Origin: Brevundimonas vesicularis
Lineage (GTDB): Bacteria; Pseudomonadota; Alphaproteobacteria; Caulobacterales; Caulobacteraceae
DNA: 64,000 nt
Direction of reading: 5' to 3'
Assembly: GCF_014204545.1 (NCBI RefSeq)
Contig: NZ_JACHLJ010000001.1
Coordinates: forward strand, 496,001 to 560,000
In this document: positions 169 to 61,895 of the stretch, piece after piece
Layout: each line of letters starts with the position of its first letter
Position numbering within the stretch: position 1 is the stretch's first letter
Made by a program: the position numbers and the translations under genes
The notes under the pieces: model-generated
Told to the model about the DNA's origin: nothing
Seen by the model: only the letters and a program-made list of their open reading frames with translations
The model's database searches: none

Positions 169-2435
169 CGGATACGCCTTCAGCACGCACTGCTTCGCCC
201 GACCTCGCGTCGGACGACGGATCGTTCTGGGGGTGGGTCGATAGCGAACGGGCGCGGACCGGCTTCGGACTAGCGTTCTTTCTGGCTGTCGCGATCACGG
301 CGGCGGCCATCTGGCTGGTGGCGGTCGCACCGGGCGCCACATCAGGGTCGGCGCGCGGATCGAGCAGCCAGATCGCTCTGATCGTGCTGGCCGCTAATCT
401 GCTCCTGATTTCAGGCTTGGCCATCATCGTCGGCCGGCGGGTGCTGACCCTGATGCGCAGCACTGACGAAGCCGGATCGCGCCTTCACCTGAGGTTCGTC
501 GCTCTGTTCTCGATGGTGGCTCTGGTGCCGTCGGTGCTGATCGCGTTGGTGTTCGGCGTACTGGTCAATCGGGGCGTGGACCAGTGGTTCAGCGAGAACG
601 TGAAGTCGTCGGTCGACAACGGCGCCATTATCGGTCGCGCCTATGTCCGCGACGTGGCCAGCTCGATGGATGCGGATCTGGTCACGATCTCCGATCAATT
701 GGACAGCGCACGAGGACTGTTTGACGACCGCATCCAGTTCAATGCCGCCTTGGCGCAGGTTGGGGACATTTTCCGATATCCGGCCATCTATATCGTCAAC
801 GGCAACGGCGAAGTTCTGGCGCGCGCCGAGCAACCCGGCGCACCGCCCTATCTGGCGCCGCCACGCAGCTATCTTGAGGCCGCCGGGCAGGACGGCCAAC
901 CGCCCACTGACGTCACGCAAAATCCCGATACCGTACGCTCCATCATCGCTCTGCCGGCCTATGGAGACGCCTACCTTTATCTCGTTCGTCCCCTCCAAGA
1001 GGGACTGATCGCGCGGATGAATGCGTCGGACCAGTCGATACAGGCCTATCGCGAGGCGGAAGAGAGCCGCGCTCGAATCCAGTCAGCCTTCATCCTCAGC
1101 TATCTGGAGACGGCGCTGCTGGTGCTGGTCGGAGCCGTATGGCTGGGAATGTCGGCGGCCAGCAGCATCTCTGCGCCCATCGGTCGGTTGGTGAAGGCGG
1201 CGGGCCAGGTCGCGGGCGGCGACTTCACCGCACGGGTCGACAGCGACGGCGCGCCGGCCGAAATCGCCACCCTGTCGGACGCCTTCAATCGCATGACCGG
1301 CGATCTGCAAGCGCAGCAGGCGGCGCTGAAGGCCGCGAGCGACGAGGCTCATGATCGCAGCCGTTTCATCGAGACCGTGCTGTCGGGCGTCAGCGCCGGT
1401 GTCATCGGTCTGGACAAGCGCGGCCGGGTGTCGGCGATCAACGACAGCGCCCTGCAGCTGCTTCACATTGACGACGCCGAGGTTCTGGGTCACGAACTCG
1501 CAGCCCTGTCGCCAGAGCTGAGCGATCTGGTGCGGCGCGCCGAGGCCCATATCGAAGAAGACATCGACGTCAGCCGAGGCGGAGACACGCGGCGGCTGCG
1601 CGTTCGGATCGAGGGCGGCTTGGGCGGCGAGATGGTCCTGACCTTCGACGACATCACTCGCCTTGTGACGGCTCAGCGAAACGCCGCCTGGCGAGACGTG
1701 GCGCGTCGCATCGCCCATGAGATCAAGAACCCCCTGACGCCGATCCAGCTGTCGGCCGAGCGGCTGAAGCGGAAATATCGCGCGCGGATCGGCGAGGATG
1801 TCGAGATCTTCGACCGCTGCACCGACACCATCATCCGCCAGGTCGGAGACATCGGCCGCATGGTCGATGAGTTCTCGTCCTTCGCCCGCATGCCGGCGCC
1901 ACGTTTCGCGCCCGAGAACCCGGCCGAAATGCTGCGCGAGGCGGTGTTCGCTCAGCGGGTCGCCGCGCCGGACATCGTCGTCGACATCACCGAGCCCCTG
2001 CCCAAGGCGATGATGCAGGCCGACGGCCGCATGGTGGGGCAGGCGCTGATCAACATCCTCAAGAACGCGGGCGAGTCGGTTGCGGCGCAACGGCTTGCGG
2101 CGGGTGAGGCGGCGGCATCGGATCATGCGGGCGTTATCGCCTCGCTGACGATCGAGGACGGCATCGCGACCTTCGTCATCGAGGACGACGGCGTGGGTCT
2201 GCCGGCGCGTGACCGGGACCGCCTGACCGAACCCTATGTGACCACGCGCGAGAAGGGCACGGGCCTGGGCCTGGCCATCGTCAAACGCATTTGCGAGGAC
2301 CACGGCGGCGAGCTGAAGTTGGCTGACGCCCAAACCCTGCGCGGCGCACGCGTGTGCATGATCTTCCCCCTGAAACCCCACGGTAAAGGCGGCGAGGGCG
2401 CGGAGCGCAAGCTCCAGACCCTGGCCGCCGAATAG
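165..2435 (+). CDS. ntrY: NtrY nitrogen-regulation sensor histidine kinase
   Basis: Inner-membrane sensor kinase that phosphorylates NtrX, encoded next. The 756-residue protein has three early membrane segments (about 35-55, 69-89 and 110-133), a periplasmic sensor region of about 170 residues, a fourth segment near 305-328, a HAMP linker (about 330-383), a PAS domain (about 400-490), a HisKA domain with the H-box RRIAHEIKNPLTP (phospho-acceptor His518), and an ATPase domain with DDGVGLP and GTGLGLAIV glycine boxes. Length and domain order are those of alphaproteobacterial NtrY. Only 9 nt separate it from ntrX, so the two are co-transcribed. The start overlaps the preceding stop codon. Confidence 0.95.
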   Translation: MTDTPSARTASPDLASDDGSFWGWVDSERARTGFGLAFFLAVAITAAAIWLVAVAPGATSGSARGSSSQIALIVLAANLLLISGLAIIVGRRVLTLMRSTDEAGSRLHLRFVALFSMVALVPSVLIALVFGVLVNRGVDQWFSENVKSSVDNGAIIGRAYVRDVASSMDADLVTISDQLDSARGLFDDRIQFNAALAQVGDIFRYPAIYIVNGNGEVLARAEQPGAPPYLAPPRSYLEAAGQDGQPPTDVTQNPDTVRSIIALPAYGDAYLYLVRPLQEGLIARMNASDQSIQAYREAEESRARIQSAFILSYLETALLVLVGAVWLGMSAASSISAPIGRLVKAAGQVAGGDFTARVDSDGAPAEIATLSDAFNRMTGDLQAQQAALKAASDEAHDRSRFIETVLSGVSAGVIGLDKRGRVSAINDSALQLLHIDDAEVLGHELAALSPELSDLVRRAEAHIEEDIDVSRGGDTRRLRVRIEGGLGGEMVLTFDDITRLVTAQRNAAWRDVARRIAHEIKNPLTPIQLSAERLKRKYRARIGEDVEIFDRCTDTIIRQVGDIGRMVDEFSSFARMPAPRFAPENPAEMLREAVFAQRVAAPDIVVDITEPLPKAMMQADGRMVGQALINILKNAGESVAAQRLAAGEAAASDHAGVIASLTIEDGIATFVIEDDGVGLPARDRDRLTEPYVTTREKGTGLGLAIVKRICEDHGGELKLADAQTLRGARVCMIFPLKPHGKGGEGAERKLQTLAAE

Positions 2436-35905: not shown

Positions 35906-36535
35906 ATGAGACGAGGGCTGATCGCCGTGGCGGCGCTGTCGGCGCTGGCGGGCTGCGCGACTGTTCAGCCTGAACCCATAAGGCCCCGCGTTGCGCTCGA
36001 TACGACCGCCGGCACGATTGTGCTGGCGCTGAATGCAGCCGTCGCGCCGAGCACGACATGCAACTTCATCGGCTACGTCGTGACCGGTGATTATGATGGG
36101 GGCACGTTCTTCCGAACGGTCAACCGCGATACCAATACCGCCAGCCGCTATCCTATCGACGTAATCCAGGCGGCGACGCCACGCGGCAGCGATGACGCCT
36201 CGCGGCCGCCGATCATTCTTGAACGGACACGAGACACTGGCCTGCGTCATACGGCCGGCGCGGTGTCCATGGCGCGGGACGGACCGGACAGCGCGACCTC
36301 CAGCTTCTTCATCGTCACTGAGGATACGCCGAGTTTGGACTATGGCGGAGGGCGGAATCCTGACGGTCAGGGCTTCGCCGCATTCGGAGCCGTGCTCCAA
36401 GGACTGGATGTCGCGCGCCGGATCCAGCGGATGCCCGTGAACTCTCAGGAGCAGCTTACGCCGCCCGTCGGCATCCGCTCCGCGCGTTTGCTGGATGCGG
36501 CGCCCGCCGTCTGTATGAAGTCGATGCGACCGTGA
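35906..36535 (+). CDS. Cyclophilin-type peptidyl-prolyl isomerase lipoprotein
   Basis: 209-residue lipoprotein with the lipobox LAGC (Cys16) and a cyclophilin fold: VALDTTAGTIVLALNAAVAPSTTCNFIGYV, YDGGTFFRTV, SATSSFFIV and the C-terminal FGAVLQGLDVARRI. It should catalyse proline cis-trans isomerisation of periplasmic or outer-membrane proteins. The ATG at 35906 (MRRGLIAV) gives a canonical lipoprotein signal; an ATG at 35882 would add eight residues. Its stop overlaps the GTG of the RusA-like gene. Confidence 0.85.
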   Translation: MRRGLIAVAALSALAGCATVQPEPIRPRVALDTTAGTIVLALNAAVAPSTTCNFIGYVVTGDYDGGTFFRTVNRDTNTASRYPIDVIQAATPRGSDDASRPPIILERTRDTGLRHTAGAVSMARDGPDSATSSFFIVTEDTPSLDYGGGRNPDGQGFAAFGAVLQGLDVARRIQRMPVNSQEQLTPPVGIRSARLLDAAPAVCMKSMRP

Positions 36536-36891
36536 CCGCCGGCTGGATAGGGACCGGCAAGGTCAGGGCGCGCGAGGATGGCGATGCGGTCGAGATCGTT
36601 ATCGACGGCCTGACGACCCAGGCCAAGTACTACAAGCCGCTGGTCTATGAGTTCATGCGTAAGGAATGGCGCGGAGCCAGACCATCATGGGGCGACCACG
36701 TCGTCGAAATCCGCATGGAGCATGTCGGCGAGCCGCCCTGGATGGACCTCGACAACCTGGCCAAGGCCTTGCTCGACTCCATCAAGGGCTATCTGTTCCA
36801 CGACGACGCCCAGGTCGCGCGGCTGCTGGTCGAAAGACGCGAAGGCGAAAAAGAGCGGATCCTGATCCGCTCCTATCCGCGTAAAGACTAA
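36532..36891 (+). CDS. RusA-like Holliday junction resolvase family protein
   Basis: 119-residue protein whose centre reads PWMDLDNLAKALLDSIKG followed by DDAQVARL, the RusA-type DxDN...DA...DD metal-binding pattern of crossover-junction endonucleases. RusA is usually prophage-borne, but here the gene sits in core chromosome, starting at a GTG that overlaps the stop of the isomerase gene (GTGA) and converging on sspB with a 6-nt gap. Codon style looks like its neighbours. Resolvase activity is inferred from motifs only. Confidence 0.74.
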   Translation: MTAGWIGTGKVRAREDGDAVEIVIDGLTTQAKYYKPLVYEFMRKEWRGARPSWGDHVVEIRMEHVGEPPWMDLDNLAKALLDSIKGYLFHDDAQVARLLVERREGEKERILIRSYPRKD

Positions 36892-36897
36892 CGGCGG

Positions 36898-37371
36898 CTA
36901 TTTTTTGCGGAACTGGTCCAGCGAAACGACCTTTGGTCCGTCCGAAATCGGCGGCATGTCCTGCGGCGGGGTCGGCTCGTCTTCGACCTCGTCCAGAAGC
37001 TGCGGGTCTTCGAACTGCAGCAGGAATTGGACGCTAGGATCGTAGAAGCGCGTGATCGCGGAATAGGGGATGACAAGGCTCTTGGGCATGCCGCCGAAGC
37101 GCAGCTTGACCGAGAAACGCTCAGACTCGACGCGCAGGTCATCGTACTGGTGCTGCAGAACGACCGTCATCTCTTCCGGATATTTCGCAAGGATGTCAGG
37201 GGCCACGCTGACGCCGACGGCGCGCGTCTTGAAGGTGATGTAGAAGTGATGAGCGCCGGGTAGGCCCTCGGCCAGTACGCGTTCCAGCGCGGCACGCATA
37301 ACGCCGCGCAGGGCTTCCTGCGCCAGCTGTTCGTACCGCATCTCATCGACCGGAGGGGCCTGGTCGCTCAT
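36898..37371 (-). CDS. sspB: SspB ClpXP adaptor (alphaproteobacterial type)
   Basis: 157-residue adaptor that delivers ssrA-tagged proteins to ClpXP. The N-terminal 110 residues form the Sm-like substrate-binding domain (EALRGVMRAALERVLAEGLPG...FYITFKT...SVKLRFGGMPKSLVIPYSAITRFYDP), followed by a flexible acidic/Pro linker and the C-terminal ClpX-docking tail PKVVSLDQFRKK. The start is ATG at 37371 with GAGGTG six nt upstream; a GTG two codons earlier is possible. It lies directly downstream of ssrA on the same strand, a striking pairing of the tag gene with its reader. Confidence 0.93.
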   Translation of the reverse strand: MSDQAPPVDEMRYEQLAQEALRGVMRAALERVLAEGLPGAHHFYITFKTRAVGVSVAPDILAKYPEEMTVVLQHQYDDLRVESERFSVKLRFGGMPKSLVIPYSAITRFYDPSVQFLLQFEDPQLLDEVEDEPTPPQDMPPISDGPKVVSLDQFRKK

Positions 37372-37437
37372 CGTCACCTCACATTAGAGCGCGACTGATA
37401 GCGGCGCAGGGCCGCAGGCGAAAGGTGTCATGAAGGT

Positions 37438-37513
37438 AAAGCGCCGGGATTCTGACGCCGGGCTCCCGACCATCTTTTGGAAAGCGCCGGGATTCTGTTG
37501 CCAGGCTCCCGAC
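37438..37513. repeat. Tandem 33-bp direct repeat between ssrA and sspB
   Basis: Two copies, 37438-37470 and 37481-37513 (period 43 bp), identical at 30 of 33 positions. Each starts AAAGCGCCGGGATTCTG and ends GGCTCCCGAC and can form a weak CGGGA/TCCCG hairpin on the reverse strand. No coding sequence covers it. With ssrA reading toward sspB, the copies lie between the tmRNA 3' end and the sspB start. Confidence 0.9.
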
Positions 37514-37539
37514 AGGCCCCGCCCAAGGATCTGAACCCC

Positions 37540-37811
37540 TAGGACTTAAGATTCGAAATCACTCGAACCGCATTACGCGGCGAGAGCGACTTCTCCAGCG
37601 AAGTTATCGTTCGCAGTTAGAAAATGGCCCGATACGGTGGGCCAGGACGAGCGAAAGCAATCCTCTTTACACGTCCGTCGATGCTAGTCGGCCCCATGCT
37701 GCCTCCGCCGATAACGCGGGGAGAGAGTTGGTGGAGCCGCCGGGAATCGCACCCGGGTCCGGTCCGCTTATTACAAGCGCGTTTATCGCTATAGTCCGGC
37801 CGAAACCGGAC
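37540..37811 (-). ncRNA. ssrA: tmRNA, circularly permuted two-piece form (ssrA)
   Basis: Reading on the reverse strand, the acceptor piece (about 37800-37729) ends in a T-arm (CCGGG TGCGATT CCCGG) and encoded CCA. A 33-nt intervening segment (37728-37696) follows, then the coding piece starts GGGGCCG at 37695, which pairs 7 bp with CGGCTCC of the acceptor 3' end (one G-T). The tag frame 37614-37573 encodes ANDNFAGEVALAA-stop. GGACT of the acceptor piece can pair with AGTCC near 37541. This is the alphaproteobacterial two-piece arrangement. The outer ends are estimates. It rescues stalled ribosomes together with SmpB, encoded at 61.4 kb. Confidence 0.93.
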
Positions 37812-37817
37812 ATGACG

Positions 37818-37846
37818 AATATAGGCGCAGCCGTGAGGCATTCCAA
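37818..37846 (-). promoter_or_regulatory. Predicted ssrA promoter
   Basis: On the reverse strand TTGGAA (37846-37841), 17-nt spacer, TATATT (37823-37818). Start of transcription would fall at about 37811, just upstream of the acceptor piece and just after the miaA stop. Confidence 0.7.
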
Positions 37847-37860
37847 GCGCCGGATTGCAC

Positions 37861-38781
37861 TCAGGCGCGGCGCCAGTCCGGCGTCTGGTTTCGAAACCAC
37901 GTCAACTGACGTTTGGCGTAGTTGCGGGTGGCTTGTTTCAGAGCGGCGATCGCGTCGTTGCGGGCCAGGTCGCCGGACTGGTAGGCGGCCAGTTCTCTAA
38001 CCCCGACCGCCTTCATGGCAGGCAGGGCGGGGTGCAAGCCACGGGCCACAAGCGATTGAACTTCGTCTATCGCTCCCTGATCGATCATCAGATCCACGCG
38101 CTGATCGCAGTTTGCATAGAGCGGCTGACGGTCGGGCTCTCTGACCCATCCGGTCCATGAGCCTGGCGCCAACAAGGGCTGGGTGTCGGCCTTCCAGGCG
38201 CTCAGCGCGCGACCGCTGGCGATGAAGACGCTCATGGCTCGAACCAGTCGCTGGCGGTCTCCCTGTTCAATGGCCTGCGCCGCCTCGGGATCGATCTGGG
38301 CCAGGCGGCGGCGGAACGCTGACTCGCCGAGCGTCGTGTAGTCGGCATCCATCTGATCGCGCACCGCGCTCGGCACCGCTGGAATGTCGGCCAGGCCGCG
38401 CGTCAGGCTGGTGAAATAAAGGCCTGTGCCGCCCACCAGAATGGCCGGGCGTCCTTGATCGCGAAGGTCGTCGAGCAACACCATGACGGCGCGGCTCCAG
38501 CGCCCGACCGACCAGGCGTCGGCCGCGTCAGCGACGCCGTAAAGGCGATGATCGGCCTGAGCCTCGTCCTCAACCGAGGGCCGGGCCGTCAGGATGCGCA
38601 GGTCGGCGTAGAGCTGTTGGCTGTCGGCATTGATGATCACCGCGCCCGTTTCGCGCGCCATCTTCAGCGCCAGCGCCGACTTGCCCGAGGCGGTCGGGCC
38701 GGCGATCAGGGTGATTGAGGGCGGTTGGGACAAATCGTGGCTCGCGGGACGGGTTCGAGGGCGATAGAACGCGCGCATCAT
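37861..38781 (-). CDS. miaA: tRNA dimethylallyltransferase
   Basis: 306-residue enzyme that adds a dimethylallyl group to A37 of tRNAs reading UNN codons. P-loop IAGPTASGKS (Lys34), the INADSQQLYADLRILTARP segment, VGGTGLYF, and DRQRLVRA motifs are intact, as is the C-terminal MKAVGVREL...NYAKRQLTWFR. The ATGATG at 38781/38778 is taken as start, with AGG a few bases upstream; a TTG at 38790 is possible. Divergent from mrp with about 26 nt between starts. Confidence 0.94.
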   Translation of the reverse strand: MMRAFYRPRTRPASHDLSQPPSITLIAGPTASGKSALALKMARETGAVIINADSQQLYADLRILTARPSVEDEAQADHRLYGVADAADAWSVGRWSRAVMVLLDDLRDQGRPAILVGGTGLYFTSLTRGLADIPAVPSAVRDQMDADYTTLGESAFRRRLAQIDPEAAQAIEQGDRQRLVRAMSVFIASGRALSAWKADTQPLLAPGSWTGWVREPDRQPLYANCDQRVDLMIDQGAIDEVQSLVARGLHPALPAMKAVGVRELAAYQSGDLARNDAIAALKQATRNYAKRQLTWFRNQTPDWRRA

Positions 38782-38807
38782 TGCCTGCAAGTCTTCTGGA
38801 GACCGCC

Positions 38808-60537: not shown

Positions 60538-61422
60538 ATGAACGCCCCCTTGTTCAAGGGCGTGATCACCGCCCTGATCACACCACTTCGTGACGGAAAC
60601 GTGGACGAAGCCGCATTCGCCAAACTGCTCGAGCGTCAGATCGCCGCAGGCGTTCACGGCGTCGTCCCTATGGGCACGACGGGCGAGGGCGCCAGCATGG
60701 ATCTGGATGAGCACAAGCACGTCATCGAGCTGTGCGTGCGCCTGACGGCCGGGCGCGTCGCCGTCATCGCCGGCACCGGATCGCCCTATACCAAGGAAGC
60801 CATCGACCTGACCCGCCACGCCAAGACGGTGGGCGCGGATGGGGCTTTGATCGTGACGCCCTATTACATTCGTCCGTCCCAGGCGGGCATGGCGGCCCAT
60901 TTCGAAGCGGTGGCCGACGCGGTTCAACTCCCGATCCTGCTTTACAATGTGCCGGGCCGGACGGGGACCGATCTGTCCAATGAGACAGTGGCGCGGCTGG
61001 CGGGCCACCCCAACATCGTCGGCATCAAGGACGCCACAGGCGACATGAGCCGCGTCAGCTGGATGCGCGCGAACATCGATGGCCAGTTCGACCTGATCTC
61101 GGGCGACGACCCCAGCTATCTCGGCTACCACGCCCATGGCGGCGTTGGCCTGATCTCGGTGGCGTCGAATGTCGCGCCCGAAGCCATGGTCGCCTTGCAC
61201 AATGCGATGACCGCCGGCGATTATGCGACGGCACGCGACTGGCAGGACCGACTGATCAGTCTGTGCAAGGCGCTGTTTCTGGACAACTCGCCCGCGCCAA
61301 CGAAGTACGCTTTAGCCAAGCTCGGCTTGTGCAACGAGGAGGCGCGTCTGCCGCTTTCGCCGACCTCCGATGCGGTCAAACCTTTCATCGACCGCGCCAT
61401 GGCGGCGGCGGGCGTCATCTGA
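60538..61422 (+). CDS. dapA: 4-hydroxy-tetrahydrodipicolinate synthase
   Basis: 294-residue TIM-barrel aldolase of lysine/diaminopimelate synthesis, condensing pyruvate with aspartate semialdehyde. Schiff-base Lys164 in GIKDATGD, Tyr136 in LYNVPGRTG and the GTTGE loop at 46-50 make the catalytic set. Feeds DAP for the peptidoglycan that the neighbouring Slt cuts. Its TGA overlaps the smpB ATG by one base, so dapA and smpB share a transcript. Confidence 0.97.
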
Positions 61423-61895
61423 TGGCCCCCAAGCCGCAATCGAAGTCCAAGGTCATCGCCGAAAATCGCCGCGCGCGGTTCGACTATTTCCTGGAAGACA
61501 ATATCGAGGCCGGGATCCAGCTCCTGGGCACCGAGATCAAGGCGCTGCGCGACGGCCGGGCCAATATCGCCGAAAGCTATGCGGCGGTGGAGGGGCGCGA
61601 GATCGTGCTGATCAACGCCGATATCCCCCCATACAAACAGGCAAACCGCTTCAACCACGAGCCGCGCCGACCGCGTAAGCTGCTGCTGCACAGAAAGCAG
61701 ATCGACAAGCTGATGGGGGCGGTCCAGCGCGACGGCCAAACCATCATTCCGCTGAAGCTCTATCTGAACGATGCGGGCAAGGCGAAGCTGGAGATCGCGC
61801 TGGCCAAGGGCAAGAAGCTCCACGACAAGCGCGAGGCTTCGGCCGAACGCGACTGGCAGCGCGACAAGGCCCGCCTGATGCGCGACAAGGGCTGA
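61422..61895 (+). CDS. smpB: SmpB tmRNA-binding protein
   Basis: 157-residue protein that binds tmRNA and brings it to stalled ribosomes. [39 protein letters not shown] and the basic [23 protein letters not shown]-terminal tail are typical. The ATG at 61422 overlaps the dapA stop (TGATG); longer frames are spurious. Works with the ssrA RNA at 37.5-37.8 kb. Confidence 0.97.

Follow-up and report, generated by a model that had tools for sequence, protein, structure and literature searches.

The window, i.e., the whole 64,000-nt stretch of DNA analysed here, carries on its minus strand miaA, ssrA, and sspB in that order, followed by a RusA-like gene that reads toward them from the opposite direction. 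Its relevant features are these:

37861..38790, minus strand: miaA, the neighbour 5' of ssrA (PF01715, E 1.9e-71)
37819..37847, minus strand: promoter-like element of ssrA, CTTGGA (37847-37842)-N17-CTATAT (37824-37819) (consensus scan, one base offset, and sequence)
37483-37850, minus strand: ssrA, a permuted two-piece tmRNA gene (Rfam RF01849, 233.8 bits, E 1.6e-66)
37729..37812, minus strand: tmRNA acceptor piece, ending in ...GGCTCCACCA at 37729 (RF01849/RF04321 alignment; 5' end deduced from the promoter)
37696..37728, minus strand: segment intervening between the tmRNA pieces (bounds deduced from the RF01849 alignment)
37483..37695, minus strand: tmRNA coding piece including the 3'-terminal hairpin (bounds deduced from the RF01849 alignment)
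37573..37614, minus strand: tag reading frame ANDNFAGEVALAA plus stop (hand reading of the sequence; RF04321 match end 37573)
37483..37516, minus strand: 3'-terminal hairpin of the tmRNA, loop CCTGGCAACAGAA (covariance model R1, 41 bits, the window copy being itself in the model)
37438..37473, minus strand: additional, decayed copy of the 3'-terminal hairpin, between the tmRNA end and sspB (R1, 19.3 bits, E 0.017)
37396..37424, minus strand: candidate sspB promoter, CTTTCG (37424-37419)-N17-CTATCA (37401-37396) (footprint over 28 loci of the genus)
37377..37380, minus strand: Shine-Dalgarno-like GAGG before the sspB ATG (sequence)
36898 (stop)-37371 (ATG), minus strand: sspB (PF04386, 145.9 bits against a cut-off of 27)
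36532..36891, plus strand: RusA-like gene, convergent with sspB (PF05866, E 5e-10)
60538-61419, plus strand, opposite to ssrA and sspB: dapA (PF00701)
61416-61892, plus strand, opposite to ssrA and sspB: smpB (PF01668)

The Rfam and Pfam matches bear out the initial annotation in that ssrA and sspB are same-strand neighbours, both on the minus strand with ssrA upstream. Its figure of about 170 nt between them fits no measure: counted from the tmRNA model end at 37483, the gap is 111 nt long if sspB starts at the likely ATG (37371) and 105 nt if it starts at the in-frame GTG (37377), and counted from the tag stop it is about 200 nt. The smpB gene is essentially where it had been placed (24 kb away, behind dapA), at 23.6 kb from ssrA on the other strand and beside dapA. 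On the 5' side, only 10 nt separate the end of miaA (37861) from the start of the tmRNA model. The RNA fold of the ssrA-sspB gap has a z of -1.6, which is uninformative. The stop codons of sspB and the convergent RusA-like gene (36891-36898) are separated by only 6 nt.

At ssrA, the RF01849 score compares with a curated cut-off of 50, the permuted tmRNA model RF04321 also matches (to 37573), and the acceptor piece (...CCACCA) precedes the tag frame, i.e., the order is permuted. The promoter-like element ahead of the gene has the form of the S. meliloti sigma-70 consensus quoted in a passage of PMC2245857. Processing of alphaproteobacterial tmRNA into two RNAs is reported in S. meliloti and Orientia, according to sections of PMC2245857 and PMC7335160, respectively. 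ARAGORN did not report the window tmRNA at 37483-37850, though Rfam gives it 233.8 bits; annotation relying on ARAGORN may miss permuted tmRNA genes.

The match of the sspB product to PF04386 has an E value of 1.3e-42, computed from the alternative in-frame start, GTG 37377. Its solved-structure relatives are 2qas, 2qaz, and 2nys, with 2qas (E 3.5e-49) and 2qaz, both of which we take to be the Caulobacter protein, as the closest chains. The C-terminus reads KVVSLDQFRKK, and the tail VVSLDxFRKK, presumably with a role in ClpX docking, is kept across 12 aligned sequences. From its sequence, the window SspB is predicted to be the ClpX adaptor that binds the tmRNA tag and delivers to ClpXP, an ortholog of Caulobacter SspB-alpha. 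Among the named matches listed, those nearest to the window sspB come from Brevundimonas, taken here as its genus. Two SspB-domain matches per genome were seen in G061 (in tandem, locus L144) and in G096 (on separate contigs, C33 and C30). A contig titled Pseudanabaena biceps, a cyanobacterium, holds an alphaproteobacterial tmRNA and an sspB 61% identical to that of the window (L179); it is probably a contaminant.

Comparison of the gap across Caulobacterales, as the initial annotation had proposed, was based on a sample of 100 genomes of the order. Both genes were present in all of them, and the 88 that carried both on one contig had sspB on the same strand and downstream of ssrA, at no more than 20 kb, in 83 cases, 47 of them at no more than 600 nt (distances in the order and class samples and in the smpB and miaA controls end at profile-hit ends, not at start codons). 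The class sample comprised 142 genomes, mostly one per family, of which 131 had a tmRNA over the cut-off, 127 an SspB, and 125 both. Among the 104 of these 125 with the two genes on one contig, sspB lay downstream of ssrA on the same strand and within 18 kb in 100, and the remaining 4 were unlinked; with the distance taken to the SspB profile hit, 88 fell within 600 nt and 67 within 150 nt. No weight either way is given to genomes whose two genes lie on separate contigs, of which there were 12 among the 100 of the order and 21 among the 125 of the class. A tmRNA was also found upstream on the same strand in 72 of 80 sspB loci of a named set (flank fetched, at most 3 kb), which represents the best 80 loci among the matches listed and is hence biased to close relatives of the query. 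The linkage of ssrA and sspB is far beyond chance, and the pairing is class-wide in the Alphaproteobacteria sample.

Absence of the linkage from close relatives, which had been named at the outset as an argument against a module, was encountered only in part: the linkage is kept in most of the order, but genera g13 and g24 (family f5) are unlinked wherever ssrA and sspB share a contig. In one further genome of the order (G067), sspB is on the strand opposite to ssrA. The spacing reaches 2 to 11 kb in some lineages, and in genus g6 of family f2 the two genes are on the same strand but 5.7 to 10.7 kb apart. Inserts between ssrA and sspB in L154 and L156 contain long, mechanically called ORFs on the other strand, which implies that read-through from ssrA is not essential there. 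At two other loci (L142 and L144), a pyruvate kinase-like gene, recognised by eye, lies between ssrA and sspB on the same strand.

The controls behaved differently from sspB. Within 5 kb of ssrA, smpB was found in none of the 125 class genomes, 23 of which had both genes on one contig; a limit of 30 kb admits two, the window being one of them, which makes the proximity of smpB noted there incidental. Of the 100 order genomes, 54 have miaA at most 30 kb from ssrA, but it switches strand relative to ssrA between families and is on the same strand and upstream only in the window's family, whereas sspB holds its strand and its side of ssrA in 83 of the 88 order genomes that carry both genes on one contig. 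A phylum sample of 100 genomes yielded 63 non-alpha genomes with a one-piece tmRNA over the cut-off and an SspB match (over its own cut-off in 61, many of them weak); ssrA-sspB linkage was absent from all 63, the 13 with both genes on one contig never having them closer than 165 kb. The pairing goes with the alphaproteobacterial lineage and with its permuted tmRNA, two factors that are inseparable here.

How sspB is transcribed was approached through the gap lengths in 80 class loci, i.e., the 80 with the shortest gaps outside the window's genus, out of 88 linked within 600 nt. With start codons picked by a rule on start type, Shine-Dalgarno, and distance, the predicted sspB start lies a median of 65.5 nt from the tmRNA model end, at most 50 nt from it in 33 of the 80 and at most 30 nt in 19. 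Several compact loci (L061, L067, and L085) have a Shine-Dalgarno-like sequence directly 3' of the hairpin. A gap of at most 50 nt is too short for a sigma-70 promoter plus leader, and for one of at most 30 nt even a leaderless start is too large, so that the message would begin inside or before the tmRNA gene. At the loci whose predicted start follows the tmRNA end by no more than 50 nt, sspB is probably read through from ssrA, and a shared ssrA-sspB transcript is plausible in compact lineages. This tightness is the strongest argument for read-through, though an indirect one. Against read-through, gaps of about 35 to 50 nt might be just long enough for a leaderless transcript, and compact lineages may have a promoter within the tmRNA gene.

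Whether read-through occurs also depends on the hairpin at the tmRNA 3' end. In an alignment of 39 sequences (the window plus class sequences, of which 40 were drawn and 38 used, without L105 and L123), its stem covaries at all 7 pairs, with 97.7% of cells paired and 0 of 500 shuffles as high, and its loop, CAACAGAA, is nearly fixed. Because the stem covaries and the loop is near-invariant, the hairpin likely belongs to the RNA, being part of the tmRNA and more than a plain terminator. A T run (at least 5 T in 8) follows it in 24 of the 80 class loci and 2 of the 28 genus loci examined below; in the window, the hairpin is stable and followed by a weak T run. The strong terminator that the initial annotation had considered as counterevidence to a shared transcript is hence not clearly present, the T run being weak in the genus, but a section of PMC2245857 has the last two stem-loops of the S. 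meliloti tmRNA predicted as a "V-shaped" terminator. A discrete 372-nt tmRNA precursor is described for Orientia in part of PMC7335160, which implies that the hairpin is where many of the RNAs terminate, or close to where they are cut. The evidence on both sides would be accommodated by a terminator that stops only part of the transcription and lets the rest read through, or by a longer RNA that is subsequently cleaved.

The hairpin is also repeated. In the window, the hairpin and its decayed copy form a 33-nt repeat, 91% identical and 43 nt apart. Extra copies, two being partial, occur in 8 of 43 Caulobacteraceae sources, with five copies in all in L149, and were detected by the model in 3 of 72 named loci, all 3 from Caulobacteraceae; the gaps of the 80 class loci held none. 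Among the loci searched the extra copies are limited to Caulobacteraceae, the family of the order that the search covered. The copies between ssrA and sspB span positions 1077-1394 (minus strand) in L149, 2720-2896 in L209, and 37438-37513 in the window, and a 75-nt tandem array is present in a record of Caulobacter vibrioides. In several loci the stretch between copies appears by eye to be complementary to the 5' arm of the hairpin, making alternative folds possible. As for their origin, a dispersed repeat was rejected on a model search of the home genome that found only the ssrA hairpin and one stray match (E 0.44), a search that also missed the decayed copy and that further decayed copies could therefore escape. 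Integration scars are a candidate reading, suggested by abstracts on islands that integrate at ssrA.

The window's own genus presents a different picture. The genus set comprised 28 loci including the window, i.e., the best 30 of 57 matches in 61 genomes without L032 and L047, in which the sspB motif was not found. Their gaps measure 68 to 202 nt, and MAFFT placed two blocks, with no alignment gaps between them, before the ATG in 28 of 28. A score of at least 9 of 12 for CTTTCG-N17-CTATCA was reached by 25 of the 28 loci (window included) versus 3.4% of shuffled gaps, although the score is not independent, the consensus having been derived from these very loci and the scan being limited to N17; the gap-free MAFFT blocks are the safer support. 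The hexamers show a mean pairwise identity of 0.86 and 0.76, the spacer one of 0.47 (27 distinct spacers), and the flanks 0.36 and 0.42. The element ends 24 to 29 nt before the sspB ATG in 26 loci and 46 to 47 nt before it in the other two, while its distance to the tmRNA varies from 15 to 148 nt. Its architecture is that of the ssrA promoter. For the genus, window included, the most probable reading is that sspB transcription begins at a sigma-70-like promoter of its own, which in the window lies at 37424-37396. The separate sspB start within the gap that the initial annotation had set against a shared transcript is thereby indicated, through an element kept across the genus.

Outside the genus, its promoter matrix reached p of at most 0.05 in only 2 of 19 other Caulobacterales loci, one of which (L168) is close to the window's genus, and in 7 of 80 class loci; this failure speaks against a class-wide sspB promoter of this kind. 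Other Caulobacteraceae have a related candidate element, CTTTGCG...GCTAGG-like, seen by eye. With regard to an operon, ssrA and sspB have the same strand and a conserved adjacency, and the candidate promoter footprint suggests that in the window they are not free of a promoter between them.

The explanation that we favour, and consider reasonably probable, is an old ssrA-sspB pair of the Alphaproteobacteria in which the tmRNA would write the degradation tag and the ClpX adaptor would read it, with read-through in compact lineages and a separate sspB promoter in Brevundimonas. In the compact lineages transcription would continue beyond the 3' hairpin of the tmRNA and so yield sspB mRNA. Such an extension would do no harm to a permuted gene, whose functional CCA end is cut out inside the precursor, leaving the 3' end of the primary transcript free to extend; the hairpin would mark the end of the coding piece and limit read-through. 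In Brevundimonas, including the window, the gap is wider, and sspB would use its own sigma-70-like promoter, with read-through from ssrA as at most a second source. The pairing is probably functional.

The shared transcript of the initial annotation is accordingly the simplest reading at the very short gaps of many lineages, but as the sole route to sspB in the window it is doubtful. That sspB depends there entirely on transcription initiated at the ssrA promoter would agree with the common strand, the 111-nt gap, the weak T run after the hairpin, and the compact relatives elsewhere in the class; we regard it as very unlikely nonetheless, given a promoter-like element that stays 24 to 29 nt before the ATG in 26 of 28 genus loci while its distance to the tmRNA ranges from 15 to 148 nt. 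The opposite proposal, in which sspB always has a transcript of its own, started at promoters in the gap or within ssrA, while the hairpin ends the ssrA transcript and other reasons keep the genes linked, has more in its favour: the candidate promoter in Brevundimonas, the insertions between the two genes in some lineages, and, from the sections of PMC2245857 and PMC7335160 concerned, the V-shaped terminator predicted in S. meliloti and the discrete precursor of Orientia. Yet 33 of 80 fetched loci place the predicted start no more than 50 nt past the tmRNA end, at least 5 T in 8 follow the tmRNA end in only 24 of 80, and the near-invariant loop is unlike a plain terminator, which leaves this proposal unlikely, if still worth serious attention.

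Rather less credible is that the adjacency is an inherited accident without functional meaning, a piece of a conserved chromosomal block. That miaA, too, is often in the wider vicinity of ssrA in the order (at most 30 kb away in 54 of 100 genomes) is in keeping with such a block, but the orientation of miaA varies between families whereas that of sspB, and its side of ssrA, is constant in 83 of 88 one-contig genomes, the short gap persists across many families, and tmRNA and SspB act on the same substrates. An accident of neighbourhood is not favoured by the smpB and miaA controls and the non-alpha genomes either.

A wider reading, which we put forward tentatively as a possibility below even chance, is that the precursor of the alphaproteobacterial permuted tmRNA doubles as the 5' leader of sspB, so that one RNA would give rise to the acceptor piece, the coding piece, and the message of the reader. 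The hairpin would then set the amount of reader per tag RNA, and permutation, by releasing the 3' end of the transcript from aminoacylation, would have allowed the fusion. Brevundimonas, and perhaps other Caulobacteraceae, would later have uncoupled the two by means of a dedicated sspB promoter, in a family that would have repeatedly duplicated the hairpin.

Conservation of a tag writer beside a tag reader suggests that cells match the supply of adaptor to that of tmRNA. The pairing bears on the control of adaptor dose in bacteria like Caulobacter, and it provides a simple test of whether tmRNA permutation has regulatory consequences. Loss of ssrA in Caulobacter delays replication timing, as stated in part of PMC8119881. 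Adjacency of ssrA and sspB was not named in the literature searched, among the matches listed (mostly abstracts, with few subscription papers). Both genes flanking the tmRNA are conserved in the Alphaproteobacteria compared in PMC2245857, a section of which judges their functional association uncertain, since even smpB is unlinked; the term "sspB" is absent from its main text. The pairing reopens that verdict, in the form given in this section of PMC2245857, on functional links between the alphaproteobacterial tmRNA and its conserved neighbours.

Among known systems, the adjacency of ssrA and smpB, cited as a functional adjacency in a passage of PMC2245857, likewise places a tmRNA gene beside the gene for a protein partner. 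In the pair described here, by contrast, the partner is a proteolysis adaptor rather than a tmRNA-binding protein, and smpB is unlinked in the sampled Alphaproteobacteria. The alphaproteobacterial SspB itself (Caulobacter SspB-alpha), to which the window adaptor is orthologous, was reportedly described by Lessner in 2007. In tRNA-mRNA dicistronic transcripts, a stable RNA and an mRNA are cut from one precursor; at ssrA-sspB, a permuted tmRNA takes the part of the stable RNA, and the mRNA, on a joint transcript that is only proposed, encodes the reader of the tmRNA tag.
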